Shown here: in pieces, positions 11,942 to 28,085 of the stretch
Layout of the letters: every line of letters begins with the position of its first letter
Position numbering within the stretch: the first letter of the stretch is position 1
Source of the DNA: Phreatobacter aquaticus
Lineage (GTDB): Bacteria; Pseudomonadota; Alphaproteobacteria; Rhizobiales; Phreatobacteraceae
Length of the DNA stretch: 64,000 nt
NCBI RefSeq assembly: GCF_005160265.1
Contig: NZ_CP039865.1
Span: 186,001-250,000 of the forward strand
Direction of reading: 5' to 3'
Made by a program: the position numbers and the translations under genes
Notes under the pieces: generated by a model
Told to the model about the DNA's origin: nothing
The model's database searches: none
Seen by the model: only the letters and a program-made list of their open reading frames with translations

Positions 11942-12082
11942 CTAGGCCAAAGCCATCACAAAAATCATGCCGACCGTGATGAGCACCAGACCGGCAACCA
12001 GCATGCGCACCAGGGTCTCACCCGGACGCAGGGCCACGGTCTCCGGCTTGCCGTCCCGATTGAGCGCCTCGACAATCATCAT
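11942..12082 (-). CDS. Small single-pass membrane protein, 46 residues
   Basis: The frame starts at ATG ATG (12082-12077), with a GAGGAG ribosome site six bases upstream on the minus strand, and ends at TAG 11942. The product begins MMIVEALNRDGKPETVALRP and ends with one hydrophobic helix (LVRMLVAGLVLITVGMIFVM). Good ribosome-site spacing and the polar-then-hydrophobic layout suggest a real gene. No function or relative was recognised. Neighbours are the aldolase operon and the DUF1127 gene. Confidence 0.55.
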   Translation of the reverse strand: MMIVEALNRDGKPETVALRPGETLVRMLVAGLVLITVGMIFVMALA

Positions 12083-12528
12083 CTTGCTCCTCTGATATGG
12101 CCAGAGCGCGGCAAAGCCGCCTGGCCGGTGTCACGCCTGCGGACCAGCCGTCTGCGCCAGATCATGTGCGAAGGCCATCAGACAGGGTTTAAGAAACGCT
12201 CATATTGCGCTGCAACATTCATCATCTCCGGCTCTGCTGATTTTTCGGGCAAATCGCCTTGCTTTTGTGCATCGCAGCCAAGCACCAACTGCATGCATTT
12301 CCTGGCTTTTGAAACTTTCCTTCGCGCAGACACCGCGCTGCAACACGAATATTGCGTCGCACCATGGGAAATCGGCAATTTCCCGAAGCCCATGGCTTCA
12401 GTGATCCAAGGCTTCGATTATTTTGATGAGTTGAATCAAACACTTTTCACAATTCAGGCCTATCTCCCCCCTGACGCGGGCACCGAACAGGTCCCGGCCC
12501 ACGCCACACCACCACTTTGGAGATTCCC
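12083..12528 (+). other. Long AT-richer leader region before the DUF1127 gene, with nested palindromes
   Basis: No protein gene is supported in these 446 bases, and composition is visibly lower in GC than the flanks. CCATGGG (12362-12368) and CCCATGG (12389-12395) are inverted repeats. Overlapping inside them, GGGAAAT (12366-12372) pairs with ATTTCCC (12378-12384). The two stems share the GGG, so they are partly exclusive. This could be an operator or a switching leader for the downstream gene. A promoter was not identified with confidence. Confidence 0.4.
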
Positions 12529-12750
12529 ATGACCTTTATGAACGCAGGCACAGCCACCTCTGCCCAAATGTCGGGCACCGGCTTCTTTGCTCATCTGATG
12601 AGCGCCCTCTCGCAGACCGTCGCCAACTACCGCGCCGCCCGCGCCATCGACCTCGCTGTCGCCGAACTGCACGGCATGAACGACCACATGCTGCGCGACA
12701 TCGGTGTCAGCCGCTCCGAGATCAGCCACGCCGTCCGTTACGGCCGCTGA
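12529..12750 (+). CDS. DUF1127 (YjiS-like) small protein
   Basis: 73 residues. ATG 12529 is chosen because GGAG lies seven bases upstream. The C-terminal half carries the DUF1127 pattern: an ELHGMNDHMLRDIGVSRSEIS helix pair followed by AVRYGR. Such small Arg-containing proteins are common in alphaproteobacteria. In some species they have been linked to RNA binding and phosphate or carbon regulation, but the role here is unknown. A hairpin follows the stop. Confidence 0.85.
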   Translation: MTFMNAGTATSAQMSGTGFFAHLMSALSQTVANYRAARAIDLAVAELHGMNDHMLRDIGVSRSEISHAVRYGR

Positions 12751-12765
12751 ATGTCGACGCACAAT

Positions 12766-12799
12766 CCCACCGGAGACGCGATCTAGCGTCACCGGTGGG
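12766..12799 (+). terminator. Hairpin after the DUF1127 gene
   Basis: CCCACCGG-A-GACGC (12766-12779) pairs with GCGTC-A-CCGGTGGG (12786-12799), a 13-bp stem with one A-A mismatch. It begins 16 bases after the stop codon. No strong T-run follows. Confidence 0.5.
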
Positions 12800-12932
12800 C
12801 TGTCCCGCCCGCCGGATAGCCGGCGGCGCACGCCCTGATGGCGCGATGAACGCTCTCGCGCACAACGATCATGTCCCGGCGGCTCGCGCCGGAAGCCTTC
12901 GGCCCTGGAATACCAATCCCCTATAATGCCTT

Positions 12933-13589
12933 TCAGCCCGCCCGGCTGAGCACCCGCACGAGATCGGTGCGCACCACCTCGATATGCCGGGCAAGGAAGC
13001 GCCCGGCCTCCTCGAAGGCACCCTGGCGGCACAGCTCGATCAACTCACCATGTTCGCGCTCGGCGCGCTCCATCGCCTCGGGCCGCGACAGCTGCACGCG
13101 CGTGTAGCGGTCGCTCGTCTGCAACAGGCCGGCGACGATCGACAGCGTGCGCGGCAGGCGGGCGCGGGCATAGAGCGCCATGTGGAAATCGGCGTTCAGC
13201 ACGCCCCAGCGGCTGACATCCCGGGCGGCGATCGCCGCCTCGAACTGGCCCTGAATCGCGTCGAGTTCGGCGAAATCCTCATTCGTGAAATGGGGCGCGG
13301 AACCCGCCAGCAGCCGCGGCTCCAGCAGCGCGCGCAGGTCGAACACATCGTGGATCTCGTCAAGCGACAGTTCCGAGACGATCGCGCCCTTGTGCGGCAC
13401 GATGCGCACCAGGCCCTCGGCCTCCAGCTGGAACAGGGCCTCCCGGACCGGAATGCGGCTGACGCCATAGGTCTCGGCCAGCGCATCCTGGCGCAGCTGC
13501 GTGCCCGATGGCTGGCTGCCGTCGAGTATCGACTGGCGCAGCCGCTCGACGATGGCTGCCGACAGGGTCCGATGCTTGAGGGCGCTCAT
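12933..13589 (-). CDS. GntR-family regulator, FadR/FCD subgroup
   Basis: 218 residues from ATG 13589 (GGAG upstream). The N-terminal winged helix is at about 5-70 (LSAAIVERLRQSILDG, LAETYGVSRIPVREAL, LEAEGLVRIVPHKG). The FCD ligand domain follows at about 80-210, with acidic/His residues (DLRALLEP, FHMALY). Such regulators usually repress neighbouring catabolic operons and release DNA when a carboxylate binds a metal in the FCD pocket. It is divergent from the TRAP/AcnX operon, whose promoter carries a candidate operator. Confidence 0.88.
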   Translation of the reverse strand: MSALKHRTLSAAIVERLRQSILDGSQPSGTQLRQDALAETYGVSRIPVREALFQLEAEGLVRIVPHKGAIVSELSLDEIHDVFDLRALLEPRLLAGSAPHFTNEDFAELDAIQGQFEAAIAARDVSRWGVLNADFHMALYARARLPRTLSIVAGLLQTSDRYTRVQLSRPEAMERAEREHGELIELCRQGAFEEAGRFLARHIEVVRTDLVRVLSRAG

Positions 13590-13724
13590 GCGGGCTCCAG
13601 AGGGGCGGCAGCGGGCTTGGTGGGGTCTGCGCGATGGAGGAGGTCCGTCGCCCATGCCCACTGGCTCGTCGCAAGAATGCTGACCTGCGCGCAAGGATCG
13701 ATAGCCACAAAAGCGCGCAGCAAA

Positions 13725-13864
13725 CCCTCTCCCCGCTCACGGGGAGAGGGAAGGGTGAGGGGCCACGCCCCGCTGGAACCACCGGTGATCGGACGAGCGG
13801 AACGATGCCCCTCACCCGTCCGAGGCTTGGCGTCGTCCGATCTCTCCCCGCAGGCGGGGAGAGG
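13725..13864. repeat. Pair of palindromic repeats (REP-like)
   Basis: CCCTCTCCCC/GGGGAGAGGG (13725-13750) and TCTCTCCCCG/CGGGGAGAGG (13841-13863) are two palindromes. Each is bordered by a related GGGTGAGGGG or CCCCTCACCC box (about 13753-13762 and 13808-13817), so the whole block is a large inverted arrangement. Similar G/C-rich palindromes lie at 51644-51780. They are typical non-coding repeats of Hyphomicrobiales genomes. The rest of 13589-14026 holds nothing recognisable. Confidence 0.7.
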
Positions 13865-14026
13865 TGAGCGCGGCACCATCGCGCGTCGAGGACGGAGATG
13901 CGTCACGGGGCTGCCCTGCGCCGAACGCCCCGGCGCCCGGCCCACGTGCAGGCCCGCCTCACTCCATACTGCCTTGCAACCCGCCATATCCGCTCAATCC
14001 CGTATGGGAAATCCAGTTCCCTACGC

Positions 14027-14056
14027 TTGACTCCCAGATTGTATAAAATCTACGAT
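14027..14056 (+). promoter_or_regulatory. Promoter with candidate GntR operator for the TRAP operon
   Basis: TTGACT (14027-14032) and TACGAT (14051-14056) form a sigma-70 promoter with an 18-bp spacer. Within the spacer lies AGATTGTATAAAATCT (14036-14051), an inverted repeat AGATT-N6-AATCT with a TTGTATAAA core like those bound by FadR/VanR-type GntR proteins. Binding there would block RNA polymerase. The regulator encoded at 12933 is the obvious candidate. Confidence 0.55.
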
Positions 14057-14099
14057 CTGTGAAATCCAGAGCAGACTTCACCCCTCAGCGAGATTTCCG

Positions 14100-14726
14100 A
14101 TGGTCGACCAGACCATAGCAACCCACACGCCCCTTGCCCGGCCGTACCGGCTGATCCTCGCCGCATCGACGCGGCTGCTGGCGGTCGAGCGTCTGCTGAT
14201 CATGGGGTTCATGTACCTCCTGACCGCTCTGATCCTGCTCAACGTGGCGACCCGCTATGCCAGGGTGCCGATCTACTGGATCGACGAATCGGCGGTCTAT
14301 TCGGTGGTCTGGCTCACCTTCATCGGAGCCTCCGCCATGACGCGCCTGAGGCTCGACTTCGCCGTCAGCATGCTGACCGAGCGGCTGTCGGAACGGGGGG
14401 CAATGATCGCGAAAGTGCTGTCGACCCTCGCGGTGATCATCTTCGGCCTGGCCCTGATGACCATGTGCTGGCTCTGGATGGACCCGGTCGGCCTCGCCCG
14501 CGCCGGCTTCGATGCCCGCGAGTTTGCCGGTCAGACCTTCAATTTCCTCTACACCGAACGCACCCAGACGCTGGGCTGGCCGACCTGGTCGCTCTACCTG
14601 ATCATGCCGATCTTCGCGGTGTCGATGACCATTCACGGCCTTGCCAACCTCATCGAGGATCTCGAGCTGGCGCCGAAGGCATCGCATCCGAGCTTCGTGC
14701 TCTCGGCCGTCGACGGAGTGAACTGA
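14100..14726 (+). CDS. TRAP transporter small permease (DctQ type)
   Basis: 208 residues with four predicted membrane helices: about 35-58 (LLIMGFMYLLTALILLNVA), 70-90, 110-130 and 160-180. The DctQ hallmark WIDESAVYSVVWLTFIGASAMTR is present. It forms the membrane complex with the large subunit and works with the periplasmic receptor encoded at 16027. First gene of the operon; the large-subunit gene begins one base after its stop. Confidence 0.9.
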   Translation: MVDQTIATHTPLARPYRLILAASTRLLAVERLLIMGFMYLLTALILLNVATRYARVPIYWIDESAVYSVVWLTFIGASAMTRLRLDFAVSMLTERLSERGAMIAKVLSTLAVIIFGLALMTMCWLWMDPVGLARAGFDAREFAGQTFNFLYTERTQTLGWPTWSLYLIMPIFAVSMTIHGLANLIEDLELAPKASHPSFVLSAVDGVN

Positions 14727-14727
14727 C

Positions 14728-15993
14728 ATGCTGACCGGTGCGGCCTTCATGGTGGTGATGCTGGTCGGCGTGCCGATCGGCCTGTGCCTCTGCATTGCAG
14801 CGATCGTCTATGTCATGGCATCGGGCAATCCTCTGCTGTTCCAGTCCTATCCGCTGCAGATGTTCGGCGGCGTCGACAGCTATGGGCTGATCGCCATTCC
14901 GCTGTTCATCCTGATCGGCGAGATCATGAACGGCGGCGGCATCACCAAGCGCATCGTCGACCTCGCCATGGCCTTCGTCGGCTCACTGAAGGGCGGGCTG
15001 GCCTATGTGAACATCCTCGCCAATATGTTCGTCTCCTCCATCCTCGGCTCGGCCACCGCCCAGGTGGCGATCATGGCGCAGATCATGGTCCCGGAAATGG
15101 AGAAGAAGGGCTACGACAAGACCTTCGCCGCGGGGCTCACGGCGTACGGCGGCATGCTCGGGCCGATCATCCCGCCCTCGGTCATGTTCGTCGTCTATTC
15201 CGTGATGGCGCAGGTCTCGGTCTCGGACATGCTGATCGCCGGCATCGTGCCCGGCGTCATCCTCACAGTCCTGTTCTGCCTGGTCATCGCGCTGATGGGC
15301 TATATCTACAATTACCCCCGCGCCGACTATCAGACGCCGCGCCAGCGCATCGCCACCATCCTGTCGACCGCGCCCACAATGCTGATCCCGATCGTCATTG
15401 TCGGTTCGATCCTCGGCGGCCTCGCCAATGCGACAGAGGCCGCAGCTGTCGGCGCCATCGCCGCCATCATCGTCGGCAAATACTGGACCCGCGAGTTCCA
15501 GTTCGCCCAGCTGCCGCAGATGATGCTGCGCGCCGGCATCTATTCGGCCATCGTGCTGTTCCTGGTGGCGGCCGCCGCCGTGTTCTCCTGGGTGCTGATC
15601 TTCGGCAAGGTTCCGCAGGACACCGCCGCCTGGATCCAGACGGTCGCCAAGGATCCGGTCAGCTTCATGCTGCTCACCAACGTGATCCTGCTGATCATCG
15701 GCACCGTCATCGACGGCGTTCCCGGCCTGATCATGACCGTGCCGATCCTGCTGCCGATCGCCACCGAGATCTATGGCATCGACCCCCGCCAGTTCGGCGT
15801 GGTGGTGGTGGTGAACCTCGTGCTCGGCCTGCTCTCGCCGCCGGTTGGCCTCTGCTTCTTCGTCGCCGCCGCCGTCACCGGTGCCAAGCCCGGCAAGATG
15901 TTCGTGGTCACGCTGCCGTTCTTTGGCGTGTCCTGCATCCTCCTGATCCTGCTGTCGCTCTACCCTGCCCTGTCCCTCATCCTCATCAAGTAA
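14728..15993 (+). CDS. TRAP transporter large permease (DctM type)
   Basis: 421 residues, about twelve membrane segments, and the conserved DctM motifs GLIAIPLFILIGEIMN, GGLAYVNILANMFVSSILGSATA and AYGGMLGPIIPPSVMFV. It drives sodium- or proton-coupled uptake of the organic acid or amino acid delivered by DctP. The TRAP family often serves hydroxyproline, sugar acids and keto acids. The genes downstream favour a hydroxyproline-type substrate here. Confidence 0.92.
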   Translation: MLTGAAFMVVMLVGVPIGLCLCIAAIVYVMASGNPLLFQSYPLQMFGGVDSYGLIAIPLFILIGEIMNGGGITKRIVDLAMAFVGSLKGGLAYVNILANMFVSSILGSATAQVAIMAQIMVPEMEKKGYDKTFAAGLTAYGGMLGPIIPPSVMFVVYSVMAQVSVSDMLIAGIVPGVILTVLFCLVIALMGYIYNYPRADYQTPRQRIATILSTAPTMLIPIVIVGSILGGLANATEAAAVGAIAAIIVGKYWTREFQFAQLPQMMLRAGIYSAIVLFLVAAAAVFSWVLIFGKVPQDTAAWIQTVAKDPVSFMLLTNVILLIIGTVIDGVPGLIMTVPILLPIATEIYGIDPRQFGVVVVVNLVLGLLSPPVGLCFFVAAAVTGAKPGKMFVVTLPFFGVSCILLILLSLYPALSLILIK

Positions 15994-16026
15994 GCCAACC
16001 CCTCAGTGAACCTCGGAGAGACCAAG

Positions 16027-17010
16027 ATGACCCTCAGCCGCCGCCATCTGATCGCCGCAGGCGCCACCCTGCCGCTGGCCGCCCCCTCCCTCGCACTCGC
16101 CCAGGCCAAGGAATTCCGCCTCGGCCTGATCACGCCGAACGGCCATTCCTGGAACAAGGCCGCGCTCAAGCTCGCCGACCGGCTGAAGGCGGAGACGAAC
16201 GGCCGCCTGACGATGACCGTGTTCCATTCCGGCCAGCTCGGCAACGAGCCGGCAATGATGCAGCAGCTGCAGTCGGGCGCACTCGACATGGGCTTCATCC
16301 AGGCCGCCGAGCTTGGCTCGCGCGTCGACTCGATCGCCGCCATCAACGCGCCCTACATCGTGCGCTCGACCGATGCGGTGGCAAAGTTCGTCCGTCACCC
16401 CGCTGCCGAAAAGCTCTTCGACGTGTTGCCGCGCGAAACGGGCACGATCGGCCTCGGTTGGGGCATCACGGGCATGCGCGCGATCTTCGCCGCGAAGGTG
16501 CTGAACGGCCTCGCCGACATCCGCGGCATGAAGCTGCGCATCAATCCGACGCCGGTCTATCGCGACTTCTATTCCTCGCTCGGCGCCGCCCCGACGCCGA
16601 TCCCGACCCCGCAGGTCTTCGACGCCATGTCGAACGGCCAGGTCGACGGTCTGGAGGCCGATCTCGAATTCTCCTGGAACCAGCGCTTCGACAAGGTGTC
16701 GAAGTCGATCCTGCAGATGAACGCGGTCTTCATGCCGATGGCGGCGGTCGTCTCGGGACGGGTGTGGCAGACCCTCAGCCCGGCGGACCGTGAGCTTATC
16801 ACCAAGGCGGTCAAGGCGATCCTCAATGACCAGATCAACGAGCTCGCAGCCGGCGAGCCGCAGCTGATCGAGAACCTCAAGGGCACGGGCTTGCCGATCC
16901 GGCAGGTCGCGGTTGCAGACACCGAGGCGGTCATTGCCGAATTCGACAAGATCTGGCTGCCGAAGGCGCCGATTCTGGCCGAGCTGCGCAAGGTCGGCGC
17001 GACGCTCTGA
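16027..17010 (+). CDS. TRAP transporter substrate-binding protein (DctP type)
   Basis: 327 residues from ATG 16027, preceded by GGAGAGACCAAG. A signal peptide with a twin-arginine-like start (MTLSRRHLIAAGATLPLAAP...LALAQ) is followed by the DctP fold: GLITPNGHSWNKAALKLAD, the QLGNEPAMMQQLQSGALDMG region and MKLRINPTPVYRDFYSSLGA. The Arg in LRINPTP normally binds the carboxylate of the ligand. It completes the TRAP system encoded immediately upstream. Confidence 0.92.
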   Translation: MTLSRRHLIAAGATLPLAAPSLALAQAKEFRLGLITPNGHSWNKAALKLADRLKAETNGRLTMTVFHSGQLGNEPAMMQQLQSGALDMGFIQAAELGSRVDSIAAINAPYIVRSTDAVAKFVRHPAAEKLFDVLPRETGTIGLGWGITGMRAIFAAKVLNGLADIRGMKLRINPTPVYRDFYSSLGAAPTPIPTPQVFDAMSNGQVDGLEADLEFSWNQRFDKVSKSILQMNAVFMPMAAVVSGRVWQTLSPADRELITKAVKAILNDQINELAAGEPQLIENLKGTGLPIRQVAVADTEAVIAEFDKIWLPKAPILAELRKVGATL

Positions 17011-17070
17011 CACCGGACACGTCACCGACAATCAGCCGCCGGGACAGCCCGGCGGCTCCGAGTCACGGCC

Positions 17071-17171
17071 GTCACCCCCGGCGAGCGAAGCGAGGGAAGG
17101 GATCCAGGAGCCACCGGATGAACGGCCCCTGGATCCCCTTCCCTCGGCGCTGTGCGCCTCGCCGGCGATGA
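17071..17171. repeat. Large inverted repeat between dctP and the DapA-family gene
   Basis: The arm starting GTCACCCCCGGCGAGCGAAG (17071) and ending GGATCCAGGAGCC (17100-17112) is mirrored by GGCCCCTGGATCC (17124-17136) through CGCCGGCGATGAC (17159-17171). The arms are about 40-48 bases long and imperfect. It would form a long hairpin in the mRNA between the transporter and enzyme genes, possibly making their expression unequal. It belongs to a dispersed intergenic repeat type common in this order. Confidence 0.65.
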
Positions 17172-17260
17172 CGACAGAACGCGAACCGCGACCATCGCGC
17201 TTCACTTCAACATCCCCAGGGCGACACAACGCCCGCACCAGCCCATCTGGAGAAAACCCC

Positions 17261-18190
17261 ATGGCACCCCGTATTTCCTGGGAAGGCGTCTTCCCGGCCG
17301 TCACCACCCAGTTCCACGACGACCTCTCGCTTGACATCGACGCCACCGCCAAGGTGATGGACAATCTGATCAAGGACGGCGTGTCCGGCCTCATCGTCTG
17401 CGGTTCGGTCGGTGAGAACACCTCGCTCGAGCGCCGCGAGAAGGTCCAGATCATGGAGACGGCCAAGGCTGTGTCCGCAGGCCGCGTGCCCGTGCTCTCG
17501 GGCATCGCCGAGTTCACCACTGCCTTCGCGGTCGAAACGGCGAAGGAAGCCGCTCGCGTCGGCATCGATGGCGTCATGGTCATGCCGGCGCTGGTCTATT
17601 CGTCCAAGCCGCACGAGACCGCCGCCCATTTCCGCGCCGTCGCCTCGGCCACCGACCTGCCGGTCATGCTCTACAACAACCCGCCGATCTACAAGAACGA
17701 CGTGACGCCGGACATTCTCGTCACGCTGGCCGATGTCGACACGGTGGTCTGCTTCAAGGATTCCTCCGGCGACACCCGCCGCTTCATCGACACCCGCAAC
17801 ATGGTGGGTGACCGCTTCGTGCTGTTCGCAGGCCTTGACGACGTGATCGTCGAGAGCGTTGCCATGGGCGCGGTCGGCTGGGTCTCCGGCATGTCCAACG
17901 CCTTCCCGCGCGAGGGCGAGACGCTGTTCCGCCTTGCCAAGGCCGGCCGCTTCGCCGAGGCCATGCCGCTCTACGAATGGTTCATGCCGCTGCTCCATCT
18001 CGATGCCCGCCCGGACCTCGTCCAGTGCATCAAGCTCTGCGAGCACATCATGGGCCGCGGCACCGCCCTCACCCGCCCGCCGCGCCTGGCACTCCTGCCG
18101 CACGAGAAGGCCGAGGTCGAGGCCATGATGGCCAAGGCGCTGAAGAACCGGCCAATTCTGCCGGATGTCGGCCTGCGCGCCGCCGCCTGA
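17261..18190 (+). CDS. Dihydrodipicolinate synthase (DapA) family lyase/deaminase
   Basis: 309 residues from ATG 17261. The DapA/NAL TIM barrel shows the Schiff-base Lys166 ([10 protein letters not shown]), Tyr138 (MLYNNPP) and the GSVGE loop in place of the usual GTTGE. The C-terminus ends [13 protein letters not shown]. Because it is the only such gene in a catabolic operon with aconitase X and pyrroline-2-carboxylate reductase, a likely role is a pyrroline-4-hydroxy-2-carboxylate deaminase (LhpC-like) or a related lyase, not lysine synthesis. This is inference from context. Its last 90 bases are duplicated at 21045-21134. Confidence 0.82.
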
Positions 18191-18291
18191 CGCAAGGCGA
18201 ACTTACGCGCCCGGTCGGGAGGGCATCCCGCCCTCCCGGCTCTTTCCGCCAAGCGAATAGCGCCCGCAGCACAGGCGCCGGAAACCGTCGC

Positions 18292-20013
18292 ATGTCCGAC
18301 ATCCGCCCCTTGCAAGCGCAGACGGTCCTCGGTGGTGAGGCCGCCGGCCCGATCGTCGCGACCGACGAGGCGCTGAGCTTCTGGGGTGGCATCGATCCCG
18401 CCACTGGCCTTGTCATCGACGTGCATCACCCCCTCCACGGGACGAGCATCACGGGGGCCATCCTCATGATGCCGACGAGCCGGGGATCCTGCACGGGCTC
18501 GGGCGTCCTTCTCGATCTGATCCTGAGCGGACGCGGCCCGGCGGCACTGATCTTCCGCGAGGCGGAGGATGTGCTCACCCTCGGGGCGATGATCGCGTCC
18601 GTGCTGTTCGACGCGCCGCTGCCGGTGGTGCGGGCGGATGCGGAAACGTTCCAGGCGCTGTCGACACGACCGGACCTCACAATCTCCGCCGAGGCCATCC
18701 GTGCCGGCGACCTCCATCTGCCGCTCGCCGCGGCTGCGGCCGGAGCGCTGGAACTCACCGACGAAGACCGCCGCCTGCTCGCCGGCGGATCGGGGCGGGC
18801 CGCCGCCCACGCCATGGACATCATCTGCCGGATGGCCGTGCAGCAGGGAGCGACTGAGCTCGTCGACGTCACGCGCGGACATATCGACGGCTGCATCTAT
18901 GCGAGCCCAGCCAATCTGGTGTTCGCCGAGAAGATGGCCGATCTCGGCGCGAGGGTCACGATCCCCACCACGATGAACGCCATTTCCGTGGATTGGTCGA
19001 ACTGGCGCGCACAGGGCGTGCCGGAGAGCTTCGGTCATCCCGCGGCGCGCCTTGCCGACGCCTATGTTCGCATGGGGTGCCGTCCGACCTTCACGTGCTC
19101 GCCCTATCTCTTGGCCGATGCACCGGGACCGGGCGAGGCGATCGCTTGGGCCGAATCCAACGCGGTGATCTTCGCCAACACGGTGCTCGCCGCGCGGACC
19201 GCGAAGCATCCAGACTTCCTCGATCTCTGCATCGCCCTCACCGGCCGGGCGCCACTCTCCGGCGTCTATCTCGACGCCCACCGCAAGGCCCAGCGCGTCA
19301 TCGACTTCGCCCTGCCGGACGCTCCCGACGATTCCTTCTGGCCGCTCGTCGGCTATCTCGCCGGCAAGGCCTCGCCGGACCGCATTCCCCTTTTGCGCGG
19401 GCTCGCTGGCGGCCAGCCCGACCGCGACGACCTGAAGGCGCTCTGCGCCGCCTTCGGCACGACCTCGGCGGCACCCATGCTGCATATCGAGGGGGTCACG
19501 CCCGAAGCCGAAGGCTGTCTCGCGGTGGAGGCCGACCACGTCGCATTCGGGCTCGATGCGATGGCGGATGCCTGGCGGGCGCTCAATGCCGGCCCCGAAG
19601 AGGTCGAACTGGTGGCGATCGGCAGTCCGCACGCCTCGCTCGAGGAATGTCGGGCCCTGGCCGACCGCCTCGACGGCCGGCCGAAACACACTGTTGTCGA
19701 GGCCATCGTGACGGCCGGGCAGGCCGTCATCGCGGCGGCGGAACGGGAGGGAATTCTCGGGCGCCTCGCGGCGAGTGGCATCAGGGTGCTGCCGGATCTC
19801 TGCTGGTGCTCGATCTCCGAGCCGGTCTTCCCGACAAGGACGAAGGTGGTCCTGACCAATTCGGGCAAATATGCCCATTACGGCCCGGGCCTCTCGGGGC
19901 GAACGGTGCGCTTCGGCAGTCTGGCCGATTGCGTGATGGCCATCCTGACGGGCCGGGCTGCCCCTCGCGGGCCGGGCTGGCGCGTGGCCGCGCCGTCGAG
20001 CCCTTCGGCATGA
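18292..20013 (+). CDS. Aconitase X, probable cis-3-hydroxy-L-proline dehydratase
   Basis: 573 residues in one chain. The swivelling DUF126 domain covers about 1-145, with the catalytic-type SRGSCTGSG loop at 63-71, and the DUF521 catalytic domain covers about 150-573. Candidate Fe-S ligands are Cys263, Cys269 ([12 protein letters not shown]) and Cys504/506 (PDLCWCS). Fused bacterial members dehydrate cis-3-hydroxy-L-proline to pyrroline-2-carboxylate; archaeal relatives act on phosphomevalonate. The next gene encodes the matching pyrroline-2-carboxylate reductase, starting inside the stop codon (ATGA), which strongly supports the hydroxyproline role. Confidence 0.88.
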
Positions 20014-21020
20014 TCGACGTCGCGCTGTCCCTCAACGAACTGCGCGCCCTCTGTCTGGAGGTGCTGCTCGGCAACGGGTTCGAAGCGCAGCAGGCCGAGC
20101 CCATCGCCGACGTGATCGTCCGCGCCGAAGCCGATGCCTGCCGCTCGCACGGCCTCTACCGTCTGCCGGGCTATGTCGCCTCGGTATCGAGCGGGCGCGC
20201 CAACGGCCGGGCCGTGCCGAAAATCACGCAGCCCACCTCCGCCATCATCCGCGTGGATGCGGACAAGGGCTTCGGTCCGGCCGCCTCCGAGTCGGCCCGG
20301 CCCGCGCTGATCGCCGCGGCGCGCCGTCACGGAATCGCGGCCATGGCCATGGGCAACGGCCACCATTTCCACGCCCTCTGGGCCGATATCGAACCGCTGA
20401 CGCAGGCCGGCCTCGCATGCTGGGCCTTCGTCATCGGCCAGCTCAGCGTCGCCCCGCATGGCGGGACACGCAAGCTGATGGGCACCAATCCCGTGAGCTT
20501 CGGCTGGCCGCGTCGGGACGCGCCGGCGTTCATCTTCGACTTTGCCACCAGCATGGCGGCACGCGGCGAGGTTGAGCTGAAGCGTCTGGCGGGCGAGGCT
20601 CTGCCGGCCGGCTGGGGCATCGACCCCGCAGGCCTGCCGACCACCGATCCCGCCATGGCTCTCGCCGGTGCCATGCTGCCGTTCGGCGGCCACAAGGGGT
20701 CGGCCTTGTCGATGATGGTCGAACTGATCGCCGGACCGCTGATCGGCGAAATGACCAGCCACTCGGTGGCCAACAAGGTCGCCATCGCCGATAGCGGCCC
20801 GCCGCCGGGTGGCCAGCTCGTCATCGCACTCGATCCGGCAGCCTTCGCGCCGCAGGCCGTGGGCGAGGCCGAGGCCGAGACATTCTTCGCCAATGCGCGG
20901 GCCCAGCCCGGCCTCCGGCTCGCCTCCGACCGCCGCCATGCCGCCCGCGAGGAGGCGCACCGGCACGGCGTGAACATCTCGCGCGACCTGATGGACAGGG
21001 TGCGCCGCCTGCTCCCGTGA
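20010..21020 (+). CDS. Pyrroline-2-carboxylate / piperideine-2-carboxylate reductase (Ldh2 family)
   Basis: 336 residues of the malate/L-lactate dehydrogenase 2 family, which has an unusual NAD(P) fold. Conserved elements are the [14 protein letters not shown] region, the [11 protein letters not shown] block (the paired His of the active site), [28 protein letters not shown] and [17 protein letters not shown]. Members reduce cyclic imino acids to L-proline or pipecolate with NADPH. Coupled translation with aconitase X (4-base overlap) indicates conversion of its product to L-proline. Plain malate dehydrogenase activity is less likely in this context. Confidence 0.87.
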
Positions 21021-21044
21021 CCGCCTAGCCGCGTGTTGCTGCTG

Positions 21045-21134
21045 CATGAGAAGGCCGAGGTCGAGGCCATGATGGCCCGGGCGCTGAAGAACCGCCCAAT
21101 TCTGCCGGATGTCGGCCTGCGCGCCGCTGCCTGA
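21045..21134 (+). pseudogene. Remnant copy of the 3' end of the DapA-family gene
   Basis: These 90 bases match 18101-18190 at about 85 positions and keep the frame and stop: [20 protein letters not shown], then PDVGLRAAA. The only residue change within the block is Lys to Arg. Homology breaks up just upstream, so only the tail exists here, without a start or ribosome site. Together with the intact gene it forms direct repeats around the aconitase X and reductase genes. Confidence 0.85.
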
Positions 21135-21320
21135 CCCACCCTGCAACACGATCCACCGGCCTGATGGCGGCCGGATCAAGGTCCGCGCATGGGGCTTGTC
21201 CTGAAACAAGGCCGCGAGTGTCGAATAGGTCTAAAGAGGAGTGGCACAGTTGGGGAAACGGCGTGCGCAGCCTGGCCCAAATCGGCTATGCACCTTTCCC
21301 GAAGGAAAGGCGAACCAGTC

Positions 21321-21791
21321 ATGGCACTTCAACTGGTCACCGACGACATGTCCCGCACGCAGATGCTCAAGGTCGCCTATGCGGCCTGGGCCAGGGGGGA
21401 CGCCAGCAACCTGCTCTCGCTTGCCTCCGACGATTGCGAGTTCACGCTGATGGGCAATCTGGCCCTCAATCCGCATTCGGGAACCCGGCTGGGCGTTGGC
21501 GGCCTGACCCAGGCACTGAAGGATTTCCACAACGAGTTCACCATGCTCGACATGGTTGTCGAGAAGATCATCGTCGACGGCGATGATGCCGCGGTCCTCT
21601 GGCATGCCCGCATCGAGGTGAGGAGCACTGGCCGCGTGTTTGACGGCGAGCGGTTCGACTGTCTGGAATTTCGTGGCGACAAGGTCGTCAAGGTCCGCGG
21701 CTTCTTCGATTCCGCCACCATGGCCTTGCTGACCGGCCGGGCGAGCGTCGCCAAGCCGCCGGAACCCATCGAAAGAAAATCCCGCACCTGA
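21321..21791 (+). CDS. NTF2-like / SnoaL-like protein
   Basis: 156 residues from ATG 21321. The cone-shaped NTF2/SnoaL fold is suggested by MLKVAYAAWARGDASNLLSL, DDCEFTLMGN, the DFHNEFTMLDMVVEKIIVDGD segment and WHARIEVRSTGRVFDGERFD. This family covers ketosteroid isomerases, cyclases and many uncharacterised lyases or binding proteins. No catalytic assignment is possible. It follows the hydroxyproline operon but has its own upstream region. Confidence 0.72.
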   Translation: MALQLVTDDMSRTQMLKVAYAAWARGDASNLLSLASDDCEFTLMGNLALNPHSGTRLGVGGLTQALKDFHNEFTMLDMVVEKIIVDGDDAAVLWHARIEVRSTGRVFDGERFDCLEFRGDKVVKVRGFFDSATMALLTGRASVAKPPEPIERKSRT

Positions 21792-21924
21792 CCCGATGGC
21801 GCCCCGCCGCATCCCTTGCCAGCGGCCTTAGGGGTTCATGCGGATAGGCGGCTGATGGCTTTGGCCTACCGTGTCGGCAACCGGTCGTAGAACCGGCTCC
21901 ACGACATGAGGGACCAGACGCACC

Positions 21925-22341
21925 ATGATCAGCCGCCGCATCTTTGCCTCCTGCGCCATCTGCGCCGTCACCGGCTTCGCCGCAACCGAAGTCTCCGCGC
22001 AGGGCGCACCGCCCGCCGCCGCCACCGGCATCACCCGCAAGGTCCTCTCCCAGACCGATGGCCCGGCACCCGGCTATGTCACCATCATCGCCGAAGTGGA
22101 GATCGCGCCGGGCGTCGTTGCCGGTCGCCACACCCATCCCGGCATCGAGACCGGCTATGTGCTGGAAGGCTCTTTCGACCTGCCGATCGCGGGCCGTCCG
22201 ACTGTCACGCTGAAGCCCGGCGATGCGTTCCAGGTGCCGCCCGAAACCGCCCATGCCGGTGGCCCGGCCAGCCCGTCCAAGATCCGCCTGATCAGCACAT
22301 TCGTCGTCGAGAAGGCCAAGCCGCTCGCGACGCCGGCCTAA
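21925..22341 (+). CDS. Exported cupin-domain protein
   Basis: 138 residues with a signal peptide (MISRRIFASCAICAVTGFAA...VSAQ) followed by a single cupin. Motif 1 is GRHTHPGIETGYVLEG (two His and Glu) and motif 2 is LKPGDAFQVPPETAHAG (His). It is probably a periplasmic metal-binding cupin. It is unlike the cytoplasmic cupin at 9540 in having an export signal. Function is unknown. Confidence 0.78.
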   Translation: MISRRIFASCAICAVTGFAATEVSAQGAPPAAATGITRKVLSQTDGPAPGYVTIIAEVEIAPGVVAGRHTHPGIETGYVLEGSFDLPIAGRPTVTLKPGDAFQVPPETAHAGGPASPSKIRLISTFVVEKAKPLATPA

Positions 22342-22433
22342 TTATATCCGGGTAAAATTGACAAGCCCATGGTTCCGCCCTATGTCACCGGCGGCCGGCA
22401 CATTCCGTGGCGGTCGCTGGAAGGCATGAGGAC

Positions 22434-22769
22434 ATGACGACATTGGACCGAAAGGCTGCGATTGCCGCCTACAAGGAGCGGAAAGCCAGCATTGGCATCT
22501 TTGCCGTGCGCTGCGCGTCGACCGGGCAGACCTGGGTTGGTGGCAGCCGCCATCTCGACAACCATCGCAACGGATTGTGGTTCTCGCTAAAGAGCGGCAG
22601 CTTCCCGAACCGCGCCCTGCAGGCGGAATGGAACCGGCACGGAGAAGCCGCATTCACCTTCGAAGCACTCGAGCAGTTCGGCGAGATCGACACCCCCTAC
22701 CTCCAGCAGGCAAAGCTTCAAGAACGCGCCGAATTCTGGCGAAATCGGCTCTCCGCCGAGCGTACGTGA
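22434..22769 (+). CDS. GIY-YIG nuclease family protein
   Basis: 111 residues from ATG 22434. The GIY-like strand (IGIFAVRC) and the YIG-like strand (TWVGGSRHLDNHRNGLWF) are spaced as in GIY-YIG domains, followed by the HGEAAFTFEALEQF helix and a final EFWRNR. Single-domain members of this type are widespread in proteobacteria and uncharacterised. Nuclease activity is not assured, because the usual second Tyr is Trp here. Confidence 0.7.
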   Translation: MTTLDRKAAIAAYKERKASIGIFAVRCASTGQTWVGGSRHLDNHRNGLWFSLKSGSFPNRALQAEWNRHGEAAFTFEALEQFGEIDTPYLQQAKLQERAEFWRNRLSAERT

Positions 22770-22904
22770 AATCTCTCCGCTGATTTTGACATTAAATTGA
22801 AGCAAATGCTGCATCAGCGTTAGCCATACCGCAGTGCAGCGCGGTGGTATTAACCTGCCGTTGACTCGCGATCGGTCTATTCCCCCCAACCGGGGATGAG
22901 ACCC

Positions 22905-24137
22905 ATGCATAGCGATTCCGCCGTTTACAGCCGGCCCAGCTGGCGGCTGACCAATTGGCTGGCCGAGGCCCCCGCCGGCACCCCCGACGACGTGCGCGTG
23001 GATCTTCTGTCCCAGATGTTCGGCAGCCTGCCGGTGTTCATCGGCGGGATCTGCGCCACCCTGCTCCTGCCTGTCGTCGTCAACATCGTCAGCCCGCGCC
23101 CCGCCTTCCTGGCCTGGCTGATCATCGAGCTCCTGATCAATATCAGCCGCCTGGTCGTCCTGGTCCACGCCCGCCGGGCCGCGGCGCTTGGCCGGCCGAC
23201 CGCCTCGAACTTGCACGTCCTCCTGTCGCTGGCCTGGAGCGCCAGCGTCGGTCTCGGCGGGTTGCTGGCCATCATGTCGGGCGACTGGATGCTGGCGACG
23301 CTGGTCTGCGTACCCGCTGCCGCCATGGTGGGTGGCATCTGCTTCCGCAACTTCCCGACACCGCGCCTGGCTAGCGTCATGATGCTGATGAGCCTCGGCC
23401 CGATTTCTCTCGGTGCCGCCCTGTCCGGCCACGAGGTGATGATCGTCGTTGCCGCCCTGCTGCCGCTCTACATCATCAGCATGACGCTCGCTGCCTATCA
23501 GCTGAACCGGATGCTCGTCACCAGCATGGTGGCCGAGCGTGAGAACGGCCACAGGGCGCGCCACGACGACCTGACCGGCCTCGCCAACCGCGCCAATCTG
23601 ACCAGCCAGATGAACGATCGGCTCAGGCGTGCGGGCCGGGATCAGTCCGGTCATGCCGTGCTCTATCTCGATCTCGACGGTTTCAAGCGGGTGAATGACA
23701 CCCACGGCCACGCCACCGGCGACCGGGTGCTCCAGATGGTCGCCGACCGCCTCAATGCGTTGGTGCGCATCGGCGACGTGACCGCACGGCTCGGCGGCGA
23801 CGAGTTCGTGGTTCTGATCGACAGCCTGACCGAGGCGAATGCGGTGGAGTTTGCCGAACGCCTGGTCACCAAGATCGCGCGGACCTACGATGTCGATGGC
23901 ATCCCCTGCGAGATCGGTGTCAGCGTCGGCATCGCCTGTTCGCCCCAGCACGGCACCGATGTCCGCATGCTGCTGGCGGCCGCCGATGCCGCTCTCTATT
24001 CGGCCAAGGCGCTCGGCCGGTGCCGGGTCGCACTCGCAACCGTGCCGCAGACGGCCATCAATCCGCTGGCGCCTCCGCTTGCTCCCGACGACATGAGCGG
24101 CGATCTCGCCCCGCGCCAGCTTCGCGCCAGCACCTGA
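22905..24137 (+). CDS. Membrane-bound diguanylate cyclase (GGDEF)
   Basis: 410 residues. ATG 22905 is preferred because GGGGATGAG sits just upstream. About six membrane helices fill residues 38-200. The GGDEF domain spans about 215-380, with the intact active site GGDEF at 297-301, metal/substrate segments DLDGFKRVND and HDDLTGLANR, and an inhibitory I-site RIGD at 288-291, exactly five residues before GGDEF. It should make cyclic di-GMP and be product-inhibited. The membrane part is the probable sensor. The epimerase gene follows. Confidence 0.92.
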   Translation: MHSDSAVYSRPSWRLTNWLAEAPAGTPDDVRVDLLSQMFGSLPVFIGGICATLLLPVVVNIVSPRPAFLAWLIIELLINISRLVVLVHARRAAALGRPTASNLHVLLSLAWSASVGLGGLLAIMSGDWMLATLVCVPAAAMVGGICFRNFPTPRLASVMMLMSLGPISLGAALSGHEVMIVVAALLPLYIISMTLAAYQLNRMLVTSMVAERENGHRARHDDLTGLANRANLTSQMNDRLRRAGRDQSGHAVLYLDLDGFKRVNDTHGHATGDRVLQMVADRLNALVRIGDVTARLGGDEFVVLIDSLTEANAVEFAERLVTKIARTYDVDGIPCEIGVSVGIACSPQHGTDVRMLLAAADAALYSAKALGRCRVALATVPQTAINPLAPPLAPDDMSGDLAPRQLRAST

Positions 24138-24208
24138 TCGCCCGGCGGGTTGCGCATCTGAAAACTCCGCAGCATACCGGACAGGCTCAAGCTGTCTGGA
24201 TCAGGCCC

Positions 24209-25216
24209 ATGCCCCGCACCACCTTCTTCTGCATTGACGGCCACACCTGCGGCAATCCGGTGCGCGTCGTCACCGGCGGCTCGATCCCGCAGCTCGCCGG
24301 CGCCACCATGTTCGACCGGCGCCAGGATTTCCTCGCCCATCACGATTGGATCCGCACCGGCCTGATGTTCGAGCCGCGCGGCCACGACATGATGTCGGGC
24401 TCCATCCTCTATCCGCCGACACGGCCCGATTGCGATGTCGGCATCCTGTTCATCGAGACCTCGGGCTGCCTGCCCATGTGCGGCCACGGCACGATCGGCA
24501 CGGTGACCACGATCATTGAGCACGGCCTGGTGACGCCAAAGGTGCCGGGGCTCCTGATGCTCGACACGCCGGCAGGTCTGGTGGAAGCGCGCTATGTCCA
24601 GAACGGTCCCTATGTGGAGAGCGTCAGGCTCACCAATGTGCCGTCCTTCCTGCTCGGGCGCGGCTATGAGGTGGACCTGCCCGGCTTTGGCAGCCTGACG
24701 GTCGACGTCGCCTATGGCGGCAATTTCTATGCGATCGTCGAGCCGCAGCCAGGCTATGGCGACCTCGACGACCTCCAGCCATCGGACGTGCTCAGGCTAT
24801 CGCCGCTGCTGCGCAAGGCGTTCAACGCCCGCCACGCCATCGTGCACCCGGAAAATCCTGCCTTGAACAGCCTGACCCACGTGATGTGGACCGGCGCGCC
24901 CCGCAATGGCGGCACGGCGCGCAACGCCGTCTTCTATGGCGACAAGGCGATCGACCGCTCGCCCTGCGGCACGGGGACATCGGCCCGCATGGCGCAACTC
25001 GCCGCGACGGGCCGCCTGAAGCCCGGCGACGCCTTCGTGCATGAATCGATCATCGGCTCGAAATTCACCGGCAGGATCGAAGGCACGGCGAAAGTCGGCA
25101 CCCTCGACGCCATCATCCCCTCGATCGAGGGCTGGGCGAGGGTGACCGGGACCTCGACCATCACGATCGACGATCGCGATCCCTATTGGGCGGGGTTCCA
25201 GGTGGCAGATCGCTGA
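24209..25216 (+). CDS. Hydroxyproline 2-epimerase / proline racemase family
   Basis: 335 residues. Both catalytic cysteines are present, Cys91 (LPMCGHGTIG) and Cys253 (RSPCGTGTSA), so it is an epimerase or racemase rather than a trans-3-hydroxyproline dehydratase, where the second Cys is Thr. Bacterial members with this pattern invert C2 of trans-4- (and trans-3-) hydroxy-L-proline. The reaction fits the hydroxyproline genes 3-10 kb upstream. The D-hydroxyproline dehydrogenase expected next in the pathway is not in the window. Confidence 0.88.
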   Translation: MPRTTFFCIDGHTCGNPVRVVTGGSIPQLAGATMFDRRQDFLAHHDWIRTGLMFEPRGHDMMSGSILYPPTRPDCDVGILFIETSGCLPMCGHGTIGTVTTIIEHGLVTPKVPGLLMLDTPAGLVEARYVQNGPYVESVRLTNVPSFLLGRGYEVDLPGFGSLTVDVAYGGNFYAIVEPQPGYGDLDDLQPSDVLRLSPLLRKAFNARHAIVHPENPALNSLTHVMWTGAPRNGGTARNAVFYGDKAIDRSPCGTGTSARMAQLAATGRLKPGDAFVHESIIGSKFTGRIEGTAKVGTLDAIIPSIEGWARVTGTSTITIDDRDPYWAGFQVADR

Positions 25217-25223
25217 GCCGCAC

Positions 25224-25301
25224 TCAGGCGAAATAGACCGCCAGACCCGCGACCAGCAGGGCGATGATCGTTGCGATATCGATGCCGGGGCTCTGGGCCA
25301 T
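25224..25301 (-). CDS. Possible 25-residue membrane peptide
   Basis: A short frame MAQSPGIDIATIIALLVAGL...VYFA starts 20 bases after the stop of the secreted protein gene on the same strand and consists almost wholly of one hydrophobic helix. There is no good ribosome site, so it would depend on coupling to the upstream gene. The composition argues for a real membrane peptide, but evidence is thin. Confidence 0.35.
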   Translation of the reverse strand: MAQSPGIDIATIIALLVAGLAVYFA

Positions 25302-25321
25302 CGGGAGAGGGCTGCCTGCGC

Positions 25322-25690
25322 TCAGTTCGGCGCCACGACCGGATGGACCGGCGTGAACGGCTCGATGCGCACGATACCCGCGGCGAACACGCCGATGCGC
25401 GCCACAGGCGCCATCACCAGAGCGCCATTGGCGCCGCGCTGAACCGAATATTGCCAGAGCGACAGCTGACCATCGGCGGCCACCTTGCGGGCGATCGCCT
25501 CGGCGGGCGCACCCTGGCCCATGGCGGCGAGATCGGCGGCCGGCACGCCGACGAAGATCTCGTCACGCGGGCTGATCACCTTGAACATGGTCACGGCATC
25601 GGCGGCCGAGGCCTTGGCGGCGAAACCAATCGCCATGGCGGCAAGGGTGGTCGCCATGATGAAGCGGCGCGGCAGGGACTTGTTGGACAT
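25322..25690 (-). CDS. Small secreted protein divergent from the TonB receptor
   Basis: 122 residues, with ATG 25690 preceded by AAGGAG. A signal peptide is clear (SLPRRFIMATTLAAMAIGFA...ASA). The mature part contains a DAVTMFKVISPRDEIFVGVP segment and LSLWQYSVQRGANGALVMAP, with no Cys and few His. I do not recognise the family. The shared intergenic region with the TonB receptor, containing one palindrome, suggests co-regulation and a role in the same uptake process. Confidence 0.62.
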   Translation of the reverse strand: MSNKSLPRRFIMATTLAAMAIGFAAKASAADAVTMFKVISPRDEIFVGVPAADLAAMGQGAPAEAIARKVAADGQLSLWQYSVQRGANGALVMAPVARIGVFAAGIVRIEPFTPVHPVVAPN

Positions 25691-25925
25691 GGGTCGGCTC
25701 CTTGGATCGGCATGCGCCGGGGCGTCCGGCGGTGTCAGTGGCGCAGCGTCTCCGGACGAGCCTTCATTGGCGCTCTCCAGCACTGCGGTTGACCGGACAA
25801 TGTGCGGCAGGTGTTTCAATCGAACCCCTTGGCCTGCGCCTCGCGTTTCATGCTTTGCAGCCAGGCCCACCAGGGCTTTCTCCCGGGGTCCGGTCGCCGG
25901 AGAGGTTGACATCGGCACATCCAAT

Positions 25926-25946
25926 TGATGTAACGTTATTACATCA
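25926..25946. promoter_or_regulatory. Perfect palindromic operator, Zur-like candidate
   Basis: TGATGTAA and TTACATCA are exact inverted repeats around CGTTA, giving 16 paired positions in 21. It lies 34 bases before the TonB receptor start and between divergent genes. The AT-rich ATGTAA...TTACAT form resembles Fur-superfamily (Zur) sites, and the receptor looks ZnuD-like, so zinc repression is the leading hypothesis. No match to a published alphaproteobacterial consensus could be checked. Confidence 0.6.
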
Positions 25947-25979
25947 CTTATGCCGCCACTGGCGGACCGGAGCCTTTGC

Positions 25980-28085
25980 ATGTCCCCTCGCCGTCTCGCG
26001 CGCCCCCGCCTTCTCGGGCTCGCCGCCCTGGTGCTTCTGCCCGCTTCCGCTTCGGCCCAGACCGCGCTTCCGGAAATCCTGATCGAGGCGCCCCGTCGCC
26101 CGGCCGATGCCGGTCCCGACCTTGCCCTCACCCCCGGCCAACTGCAGGTGATCGATCGCGCCTTCGTGCCGGTGACCGTGGTCAACGAGGCCGACATCCA
26201 GCGCAATGGCGGCTCCTCGCTCGGCGATCAGTTGTTCACCCTGCCGGGCATCACCGGCAACAGTTTCGCGCCCGGTTCCGCCAATCGCCCGGTGATCCGG
26301 GGCCTCGACAATGCCCGCGTGCGCATCCAGGAAAACGGCCTCGGCTCGGCCGATGTCTCCGATCTCTCGGAAGATCACGCGGTGCCGATCGACCCGCTCG
26401 CGGCCGAGCGGATCGAGGTCATCCGCGGGCCGGCCGCGCTGCGCTTCGGCTCGGCGGCGATCGGCGGCGTGGTCAATGTCACCAATGAGCGCATCCCGAC
26501 CCGGCTTGGTCCGGAGGGCGTATCCGGCCAGATCCGCGGCTCGTTCAATTCGGGCGACAACGGCCACGACGGCGCGGCGCAGGTGCGCGGCCGCTCGGGC
26601 AACTGGGCCTATTCCGCCGACATCTACGCCCGCAGCGCCGGCGACTATGCGACCCCGCATGGCCGCCAAGCCAATTCCTATTCCCAGACCTATGGCGGCT
26701 CGTTCGGCGCCTCATACTTCTTCAACAACGGCTTCATCGGAGCCAGCATCTCGCAGTTCAATGCGCTCTACGGCATGCCGGGCGTCGAGCCCGCCGCAAA
26801 CCGCACCCGCATCGACATGATCCAGACCCGGATCGCCTCCAAGGGCGAGTTCCGCTTCGACGGCGGCCCGCTCGATGCTGTCCGCTTCTGGCTCGGTGGC
26901 TCGCTCTACCGCCACAACGAGCAGAGCCTAGTCGGGTCCAGCTTCGAGACCGCCGCGACCTTCCGCAACCAGGAGCTGGAGGGCCGCGTCGAGACGGCGT
27001 TCAAGCCGCTGACGACCCCGATCGGCACGCTGTCGTCGGTCTTCGGCGTCCAGCTCGGGGCGCAGAATCTCGGAACCTCCGGCGAAGCTGGCGGCCTGCT
27101 GTCGCCTGCCAATACCCGCACCGCCGCGGCCTTCCTGTTCAACGAACTGGCCTTCACGCCGGAAACCCGCATGCAGGCGGCGTTCCGCATCGAGCAGGCC
27201 CGCATCACCGGGACGGCCTCGACCTTCCCGGCCGATTACCTCGGTCCGACCCTGCCGAATGAATTCGGCGCGACGCGCGCCTTCACCCCGATGAGCGCCA
27301 GCCTCGGCTTCCTGCAGAACCTGCCCTTCGGCTTTGTGGGCTCCATCACGGGCCAATATGTCGAGCGTGCGCCGCGCGCCCAGGAGCTGTTCTCCAAGGG
27401 ACCGCACGAGGCTTCCGGCACGTTCGAGATCGGCAATCCGAACCTGCGCAAGGAGGCCGCCACCACTTTCGAGCTCGGACTGAGGCGCGCGCAGGGCCCC
27501 TGGCGGGTCGACGCCTCCGCCTATTACACGCGCTATTCCGGCTTCATCTACAAGCGCCTGACCGGCGTCACCTGCGACGACGACTTCGCCAGCTGCGGCA
27601 CCGGCGGCACCGAACTGCAGCAGGTCGTCTTCGGCCAGCAGGATGCGACCTTCTATGGTGCCGAGCTGCGCTCGCAATATGACATCGGCCAGCTCGGCTC
27701 CGGCACAATCGGCGTCGAGGGCCAGTATGACTTCGTGCGCGCCCGGTTCGCCGACGGCACCAATGTGCCGCGCATTCCGCCGCATCGCCTGGGTGGCGGC
27801 GTCTACTGGCGCGATGCCAACTGGTTCGCCAGGATGACGCTGCTCCACGCCTTCTCCCACACCGAGACCGCGCCGAACGAAACGCGCACAGCCGGCTACA
27901 ACCTGCTCAATGCCGAACTCAGCTACCGCATGGCCCTGCGCGGCTCGGCGTTCAAGGAGATGACTGTCGGCCTGACCGGCACCAACCTGCTCAACGAGGA
28001 CATCCGCAACTCGGTCTCGTTCCGTAAGGACGAGGTCCTGATGCCCGGCCGCACGGTCCGGTTCTTCACCAGCGTCAAGTTCTGA
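25980..28085 (+). CDS. TonB-dependent outer-membrane receptor, ZnuD-like
   Basis: 701 residues from ATG 25980 (GGAG upstream) with a signal peptide ending near SASAQ. The plug domain occupies about 45-165: VTVVNEADIQRNGGSSLGDQ, RPVIRGLDNARVRIQENG, DVSDLSEDHAVPIDPLAAER and IEVIRGPAALRFGSAAIGGV. The barrel runs to a terminal Phe (FFTSVKF). The SEDHAV...VEVIRGPAAL pattern is like ZnuD zinc receptors, but other TonB substrates remain possible. Energy comes from TonB-ExbBD encoded elsewhere. A palindrome upstream suggests metal repression. Confidence 0.87.
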   Translation: MSPRRLARPRLLGLAALVLLPASASAQTALPEILIEAPRRPADAGPDLALTPGQLQVIDRAFVPVTVVNEADIQRNGGSSLGDQLFTLPGITGNSFAPGSANRPVIRGLDNARVRIQENGLGSADVSDLSEDHAVPIDPLAAERIEVIRGPAALRFGSAAIGGVVNVTNERIPTRLGPEGVSGQIRGSFNSGDNGHDGAAQVRGRSGNWAYSADIYARSAGDYATPHGRQANSYSQTYGGSFGASYFFNNGFIGASISQFNALYGMPGVEPAANRTRIDMIQTRIASKGEFRFDGGPLDAVRFWLGGSLYRHNEQSLVGSSFETAATFRNQELEGRVETAFKPLTTPIGTLSSVFGVQLGAQNLGTSGEAGGLLSPANTRTAAAFLFNELAFTPETRMQAAFRIEQARITGTASTFPADYLGPTLPNEFGATRAFTPMSASLGFLQNLPFGFVGSITGQYVERAPRAQELFSKGPHEASGTFEIGNPNLRKEAATTFELGLRRAQGPWRVDASAYYTRYSGFIYKRLTGVTCDDDFASCGTGGTELQQVVFGQQDATFYGAELRSQYDIGQLGSGTIGVEGQYDFVRARFADGTNVPRIPPHRLGGGVYWRDANWFARMTLLHAFSHTETAPNETRTAGYNLLNAELSYRMALRGSAFKEMTVGLTGTNLLNEDIRNSVSFRKDEVLMPGRTVRFFTSVKF

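Follow-up and report, generated by a model that had tools for sequence, protein, structure and literature searches.

In a 64,000-nucleotide stretch of the genome of the freshwater bacterium Phreatobacter aquaticus (the window; contig NZ_CP039865.1, positions 186,001 to 250,000 of the forward strand, assembly GCF_005160265.1), the genes for an aconitase X (acnX) and an Ldh_2-family reductase lie between a DapA-family gene (dapA) and a displaced copy of that gene's last 90 bases. We compared this locus with its counterparts in related genomes and found that the lineage of this strain gained DNA in the spacer between dapA and a GGDEF gene. The account that we favor, with modest confidence, is that about 4.6 kb entered this spacer on the branch leading to the strain, and that the displaced tail is the scar of a recombination near the end of dapA.

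A displaced copy of the dapA tail

The intact dapA gene (17261-18190, + strand; Pfam DHDPS) ends in 90 bases (copy 1, 18101-18190) that recur on the same strand at 21045-21134 (copy 2, the remnant). In an ungapped comparison the copies were identical at 85 of 90 positions; they have the reading frame and the TGA stop in common, and their five differences change one amino acid, K to R. The part of dapA upstream of these 90 bases has no counterpart at the second site. All of this had been described in a sequence-only reading of the window, and our comparison confirms it. The runner-up 90-mer on the + strand of the window matched at 48 of 90 positions and the best reverse-complement 90-mer at 47, which excludes a chance match as the source of the repeat. 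Across the whole genome (4,974,952 bases), the tail matched these two sites alone at an expectation value (E) of at most 0.001.

We then set both copies against the dapA tails of 24 relatives, eight of which (family f35) have tails one codon shorter and were compared with a gap of one codon. Copy 1 differed from these tails at 10 to 33 positions and copy 2 at 14 to 35. Because the two copies differ from each other at only five positions and from the relatives at 10 or more, the copying took place within this lineage or one very near it. At the single changed amino acid, the AAG codon of copy 1 is found in 18 of the 24 relatives and the CGG codon of copy 2 in none; therefore, copy 2 is the changed one at that amino acid.

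The match may continue leftward, without a break in the frame, as far as 21021, immediately past the reductase stop codon, through 24 bases with nine differences. When dinucleotides were preserved, 14 of 1000 shuffles were as good jointly against the dapA tails of 11 congeners; with the window's own gene as the target, 67 of 1000 were. With single-base shuffles the corresponding figures were 0 to 84 of 1000 against single relatives and 23 of 1000 against the own gene. These counts hint that the repeat may begin at 21021. The remnant is best read as a non-functional dapA tail left by recombination.

A lineage-specific block between dapA and the GGDEF gene

Our family sample consisted of 12 genomes of one genus, the window's genome and 11 congeners. 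In the congeners the gene order is GntR, dctQ, dctM, dctP, dapA, one or two GGDEF genes, 4-hydroxyproline epimerase, a small gene, and a TonB receptor, as far as the contigs reach: G001 ends within GGDEF, G003 starts at dapA and its epimerase was not seen in our search, the G004 stretch stops before the TonB gene, and dapA of G009 lies on two contigs. A GGDEF gene stands immediately 3' of dapA in 11 of 11 congeners, with no remnant between the two, and none of the congener dapA stretches showed acnX, the reductase, or the SnoaL-like, cupin, and small genes that follow the remnant in the window. This adjacency, without acnX, reductase, or remnant, means that DNA was gained in the lineage of the window. 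It supports a past recombination, as the sequence-only reading had proposed, and a gain of the acnX-reductase pair beside a dapA-ended operon. The comparison suggested in that reading, a search in relatives for dapA followed directly by the downstream gene without acnX, succeeded in every congener; the outcome named there as a refutation, the same remnant in all relatives, was not what we found. When the remnant plus flanking sequence served as the query, 10 of the 11 congeners matched at the 3' end of their complete dapA and G007 gave no match; G001 and G008 each had an additional match at another site, short and weak. In the order sample, 24 genomes that do not belong to the genus carry this dapA, and acnX appeared in none of the 20-kb stretches around dapA read from 13 of them (eight f35 and five others).

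The extent of the extra DNA, from about 18242 to about 22849, is well supported and exceeds the bracket formed by the repeats. The block holds acnX, the reductase, the remnant, and the SnoaL-like, cupin, and GIY-YIG-like genes, so that the remnant is internal to it. The earlier description of the pair as bracketed by dapA tails is thus accurate in that the repeats flank the pair, but misleading as to the ends of the extra DNA. At the right-hand end, the ancestral dapA-GGDEF spacer resumes at 22850-22895 (+ strand). The G008 and G003 spacers each align locally here, and in neither case did any of 200 single-base shuffles do as well; the other nine congener spacers gave no significant match. At the left-hand end, the dapA stop is followed by a 12-bp terminator-like hairpin (18213-18241, + strand; minimum free energy -33.4 for 18191-18260, z -3.1), which a pattern scan did not list. 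Three of the 11 congener spacers were folded, and two gave strong hairpins after dapA (z -2.7 and -4.6); in the third the hairpin was weaker (z -1.5), with 14 of 200 shuffles folding equally well. The window's hairpin is probably the native dapA terminator, and its position makes cotranscription of dapA and acnX doubtful. A native spacer after copy 1 was also considered: one of 11 congener spacers (G002) beat 200 single-base shuffles with a score of only 20, which we take as chance among 33 comparisons.

Other sequence features contributed little. No Rfam family matched at its gathering score over 12000-26000. A tRNA gene as insertion site was rejected, the only two in the window being at 8303 and 63851 and neither nearby. 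The guanine-plus-cytosine fractions of acnX (0.69) and the reductase (0.71) differ mildly from those of 15 other genes (0.61-0.69), which decides nothing.

Routes to the present arrangement

Two routes fit these observations, a homology-assisted insertion at the dapA end and a tandem copy that was mostly lost. Under the first, which we favor, incoming DNA would carry the end of a dapA gene that belonged to this lineage itself or to one very closely related to it. Recombination near the end of the resident dapA, either by a single crossover or with one homologous and one illegitimate end, would leave a second, non-functional dapA tail, and the other genes of the block may have arrived in the same step or later. 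Single crossovers leave partial duplications.

There are precedents for parts of this route. Partial duplications are known to arise during transformation, according to PMC3784515. Homology-facilitated illegitimate recombination, as described in PMC3240628, likewise joins foreign DNA beside a stretch of homology, with micro-homology of 3-10 bases at the opposite end; a deletion and micro-homology typically mark the junctions of its products, and neither was demonstrated in the window. A literature search joining hydroxyproline, TRAP transporter, transfer, and DHDPS returned only unrelated work, as did one on gene insertion with partial duplication.

Several observations weigh against a homology-assisted insertion. 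None of the 11 congener spacers significantly matched the DNA after copy 2, where a plain single crossover would leave native spacer, so that at least one step beyond one crossover is needed. The two outer junction regions have no word of eight or more bases in common; shorter words are uninformative, since the junctions are not known to the base. Divergence along the remnant is uneven (9 of 24 positions in the possible extension against 5 of 90, Fisher p 0.0002); conversion of one tail by the other, or homology that stops sooner, could account for it. We found no donor, the nearest acnX being 73% identical and the nearest reductase 63%, and no intermediate, with no close sister strain among the 12 family genomes.

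The second route is a tentative alternative to which we give clearly less weight. Here a tandem copy of dapA came first, and acnX and the reductase either inserted between the two or took the place of most of the second copy, leaving its tail. The remnant retains frame and stop, as a truncated second copy would, and it is copy 2 that appears changed at the sole altered amino acid. This route requires one extra event, however, and the two full dapA copies that the sequence-only reading had proposed looking for in relatives were not found: 36 of 397 order genomes carry this dapA (E ≤ 1e-110), each with a single match.

We consider it unlikely that the block took shape as a whole in a close relative outside our sample and arrived by homologous replacement of the locus. 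The fairly long end branches of the window strain in trees of the conserved genes, and its lack of a close sister in the family sample, would suit such an origin, as would the dctP tree, which joins the window to f35 (100/100). The same tree also places the window on the genus side (93/99), and, being unrooted, allows both. The window falls on the genus side in the trees of dctQ (100/100), dctM (100/98), and dapA (98/98), as expected without replacement; this is a weak argument, given that an alternative in which the window joins f35 was not rejected for dctQ (p 0.35) or dapA (p 0.17) and not excluded for dctM. Quick trees had separately suggested a transfer of dctM and dctP from f35. Bit-score rows and careful trees put the window between the genus and f35, and we neither claim nor reject a transfer; the quick dctM tree contained a wrong row (G271, branch length about 5), and the f35 means for dctM from that row set were not used.

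Relatives of acnX and the reductase

The sequence-only reading had concluded that acnX and the reductase can move as a cassette. We compared the window with the best 80 acnX loci (66-73% identity) of at least 557 confirmed by scan. An Ldh_2 relative (E < 1e-30) lies inside the fetched stretch in 68 of these 80 loci and within 500 bases of acnX in two; the gene order and overlap seen in the window occur in none. The closest reductases (58-63% identity) belong to Paracoccus (plasmids of P. denitrificans and P. pantotrophus), an uncultured Hyphomicrobiales genome, and genome G086, and the AcnX tree groups the window weakly with a Rhizobiaceae sequence (89). The two genes thus have different sets of relatives, in quick trees built on thinned rows (41 of 93 for acnX, 29 of 70 for the reductase) with long branches flagged in both. 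At E ≤ 1e-100 the reductase was found in two of 397 order genomes, the window's included, and at E ≤ 1e-95 in one of 385 genomes of a class sample, the window's own; acnX at E ≤ 1e-200 was found in 20 of the 397, again including the window's.

Within the genus, the best relative of the reductase is 40% identical and none is close. Three of the 11 congeners have an acnX of 61-62% identity (loci L090, L091, and L092), placed elsewhere in the genome and in a separate clade, and a fourth has one of 27%; no relative of the window's reductase was present in the 9 to 19 kb read around the three loci. Plasmid searches with the reductase and dapA yielded no close donor (at most 63% and 74% identity, respectively). 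Among the five genes of the block, to which the scan was confined, we detected no integrase, transposase, or resolvase (Pfam and NCBIfam at E ≤ 0.001, PHROGs at E ≤ 0.01).

Mobility of acnX and the reductase as a unit is not supported by these results. A more specific version, in which the pair would be a mobile cassette with the dapA end serving as its attachment site, like islands at gene 3' ends, we regard as very improbable. Integration at a 3' end is known to leave the gene end whole at one border, with a displaced copy of it at the opposite border, and the intact dapA end and its displaced copy fit this signature. Against this, no integrase was found in the block, the arrangement was found once, the dapA ends of the 24 relatives read out as ordinary, and acnX and the reductase keep different company. 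In addition, with a hairpin following copy 1 and the old spacer resuming at 22850, the repeats seem not to be the ends of the extra DNA; copy 2 lies inside it, assuming that the SnoaL-like, cupin, and small genes were part of the same gain. The attachment-site idea is therefore largely refuted.

Predicted functions and comparable loci

The acnX gene (18292-20013, + strand) encodes a single chain of 573 amino acids with the Pfam domains AcnX_swivel_put (residues 28-104) and AcnX (153-548), and exceeds the cut-off of the NCBIfam model NF051439 (894 bits against 700). All 15 of the AtAcnX active-site residues checked are kept in an ungapped alignment to 7cnp, with numbering fixed by the SCT motif as Ser70-Cys71-Thr72. 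The reductase gene (20010-21020, + strand; Pfam Ldh_2) overlaps acnX by ATGA. Its protein reached no NCBIfam model above cut-off; the closest solved chain is the delta1-piperideine-2-carboxylate reductase 1wtj (E 1.2e-66, next 1.1e-38). From its sequence, we consider the product a probable delta1-pyrroline-2-carboxylate reductase. According to PMC4113996, the Ldh_2 (MLD2) superfamily has members that reduce proline ketimine, and the 4-hydroxyproline pathway uses a deaminase of the DHDPS family. DapA, which also reached no NCBIfam model above cut-off, is probably the imino-acid deaminase of a hydroxyproline pathway, as judged by its neighborhood. AcnX would dehydrate cis-3-hydroxy-L-proline to delta1-pyrroline-2-carboxylate, which the reductase would convert to L-proline. 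Families and neighborhood together make it probable that the two genes add a branch from cis-3-hydroxyproline to proline to a locus of hydroxyproline type.

AcnX genes are often located in L-hydroxyproline clusters, as stated in PMC5144071. The lhp cluster described there, whose LhpI is an AcnX of Type I, resembles the window in combining acnX, a probable pyrroline-2-carboxylate reductase, and a DHDPS-family gene, with a proline racemase family epimerase, a transporter, and a regulator nearby; its transporter is of the ABC type, whereas that of the window is a tripartite ATP-independent periplasmic (TRAP) transporter. A further likeness is found on a Paracoccus denitrificans plasmid (NZ_CP035092.1, 101475-120464), where 4-hydroxyproline epimerase, TRAP small and large permeases, a binding protein, an Ldh reductase (62.5% identical), and aconitase X stand in a row. 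In record L174 of the same species, with the same genes, acnX is 67% and dctQMP are 60-75% identical to those of the window. Unlike in the window, the reductase precedes acnX on NZ_CP035092.1, and no DapA-family gene is present among the 17 annotated features of that stretch, nor between reductase and acnX. A TRAP transporter with a DctM 74-76% identical to the window's adjoins an Ldh_2 reductase in P. denitrificans, the uncultured Hyphomicrobiales genome, and G086. The recurrent feature is this TRAP type in loose association with acnX and an Ldh_2 reductase, rather than a fixed acnX-reductase pair. As a side observation, acnX is also near in the first two of these genomes, a lead that the transporter at 14100-17010 may import a hydroxyproline.

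Flanking genes and other genes of the block

The conserved locus begins upstream with a GntR/FCD regulator gene (12936-13694, - strand; Pfam GntR and FCD), which is 74-78% identical in 10 of 11 congeners. It is followed on the + strand by the TRAP transporter genes dctQ (14100-14726), dctM (14728-15993), and dctP (16027-17010), with Pfam matches to DctQ, DctM, and DctP; their order 5' of dapA is also kept in 10 of 11 congeners, the G003 contig beginning at dapA in both cases. DapA is 91-94% identical in the congeners (91 and 95% for the two contig pieces of G009) and 90-95% in the eight f35 genomes. Downstream of the block lie, on the + strand, the GGDEF gene (22896-24137; NCBIfam GGDEF), which is the ancestral neighbor of dapA, and the 4-hydroxyproline epimerase gene (24203-25216; NF010578, 560 bits against a cut-off of 376). 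The number of GGDEF genes that separate dapA from the epimerase or small gene varies: there is one in the window and in G003, G005, G008, and G011, and there are two in G002, G004, G006, G007, G009, and G010, the G001 contig being too short to tell.

Three further genes of the block, all on the + strand, are absent from this place in the congeners. The first is SnoaL-like (21321-21791; Pfam SnoaL_2), with relatives of up to 55% identity elsewhere in congener genomes, and the second is a cupin gene (21925-22341; Pfam Cupin_2). The third (22434-22769) encodes a small protein of predicted GIY-YIG fold. This protein has no Pfam match even at E 10 and a weak PHROG homing endonuclease match (E 0.0047). 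Its model, built from a two-sequence alignment (mean predicted local distance difference test score 82), matches the catalytic domain of I-TevI (Foldseek E 1.2e-4, template-modeling scores 0.66/0.75). A relative occurs in one of 11 congeners, at another place, and no relatives were confirmed in viral contigs. The congener relative (L223) has the motif GIY...WVG, and the window's protein GIF...WVG. The fold is that of a nuclease rather than a recombinase. That this protein cut near dapA as homing nucleases do, leading to capture of neighboring DNA and a duplicated tail in a nuclease-driven pickup of metabolic genes, seems to us highly improbable; its position is its one tie to the event.

Significance

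The gain of this block and the scar beside it are ordinary genome evolution, and the finding opens no long-standing question. It corrects the idea that acnX and the reductase form a cassette, a point of use to annotators. For specialists in hydroxyproline metabolism, the occurrence of this TRAP type together with acnX and an Ldh_2 reductase, here and in Paracoccus, offers a lead on the substrate of the transporter. The locus also illustrates clearly the growth of a catabolic locus, in which a lineage-specific block sets probable cis-3-hydroxyproline enzymes beside an older locus of 4-hydroxyproline type.

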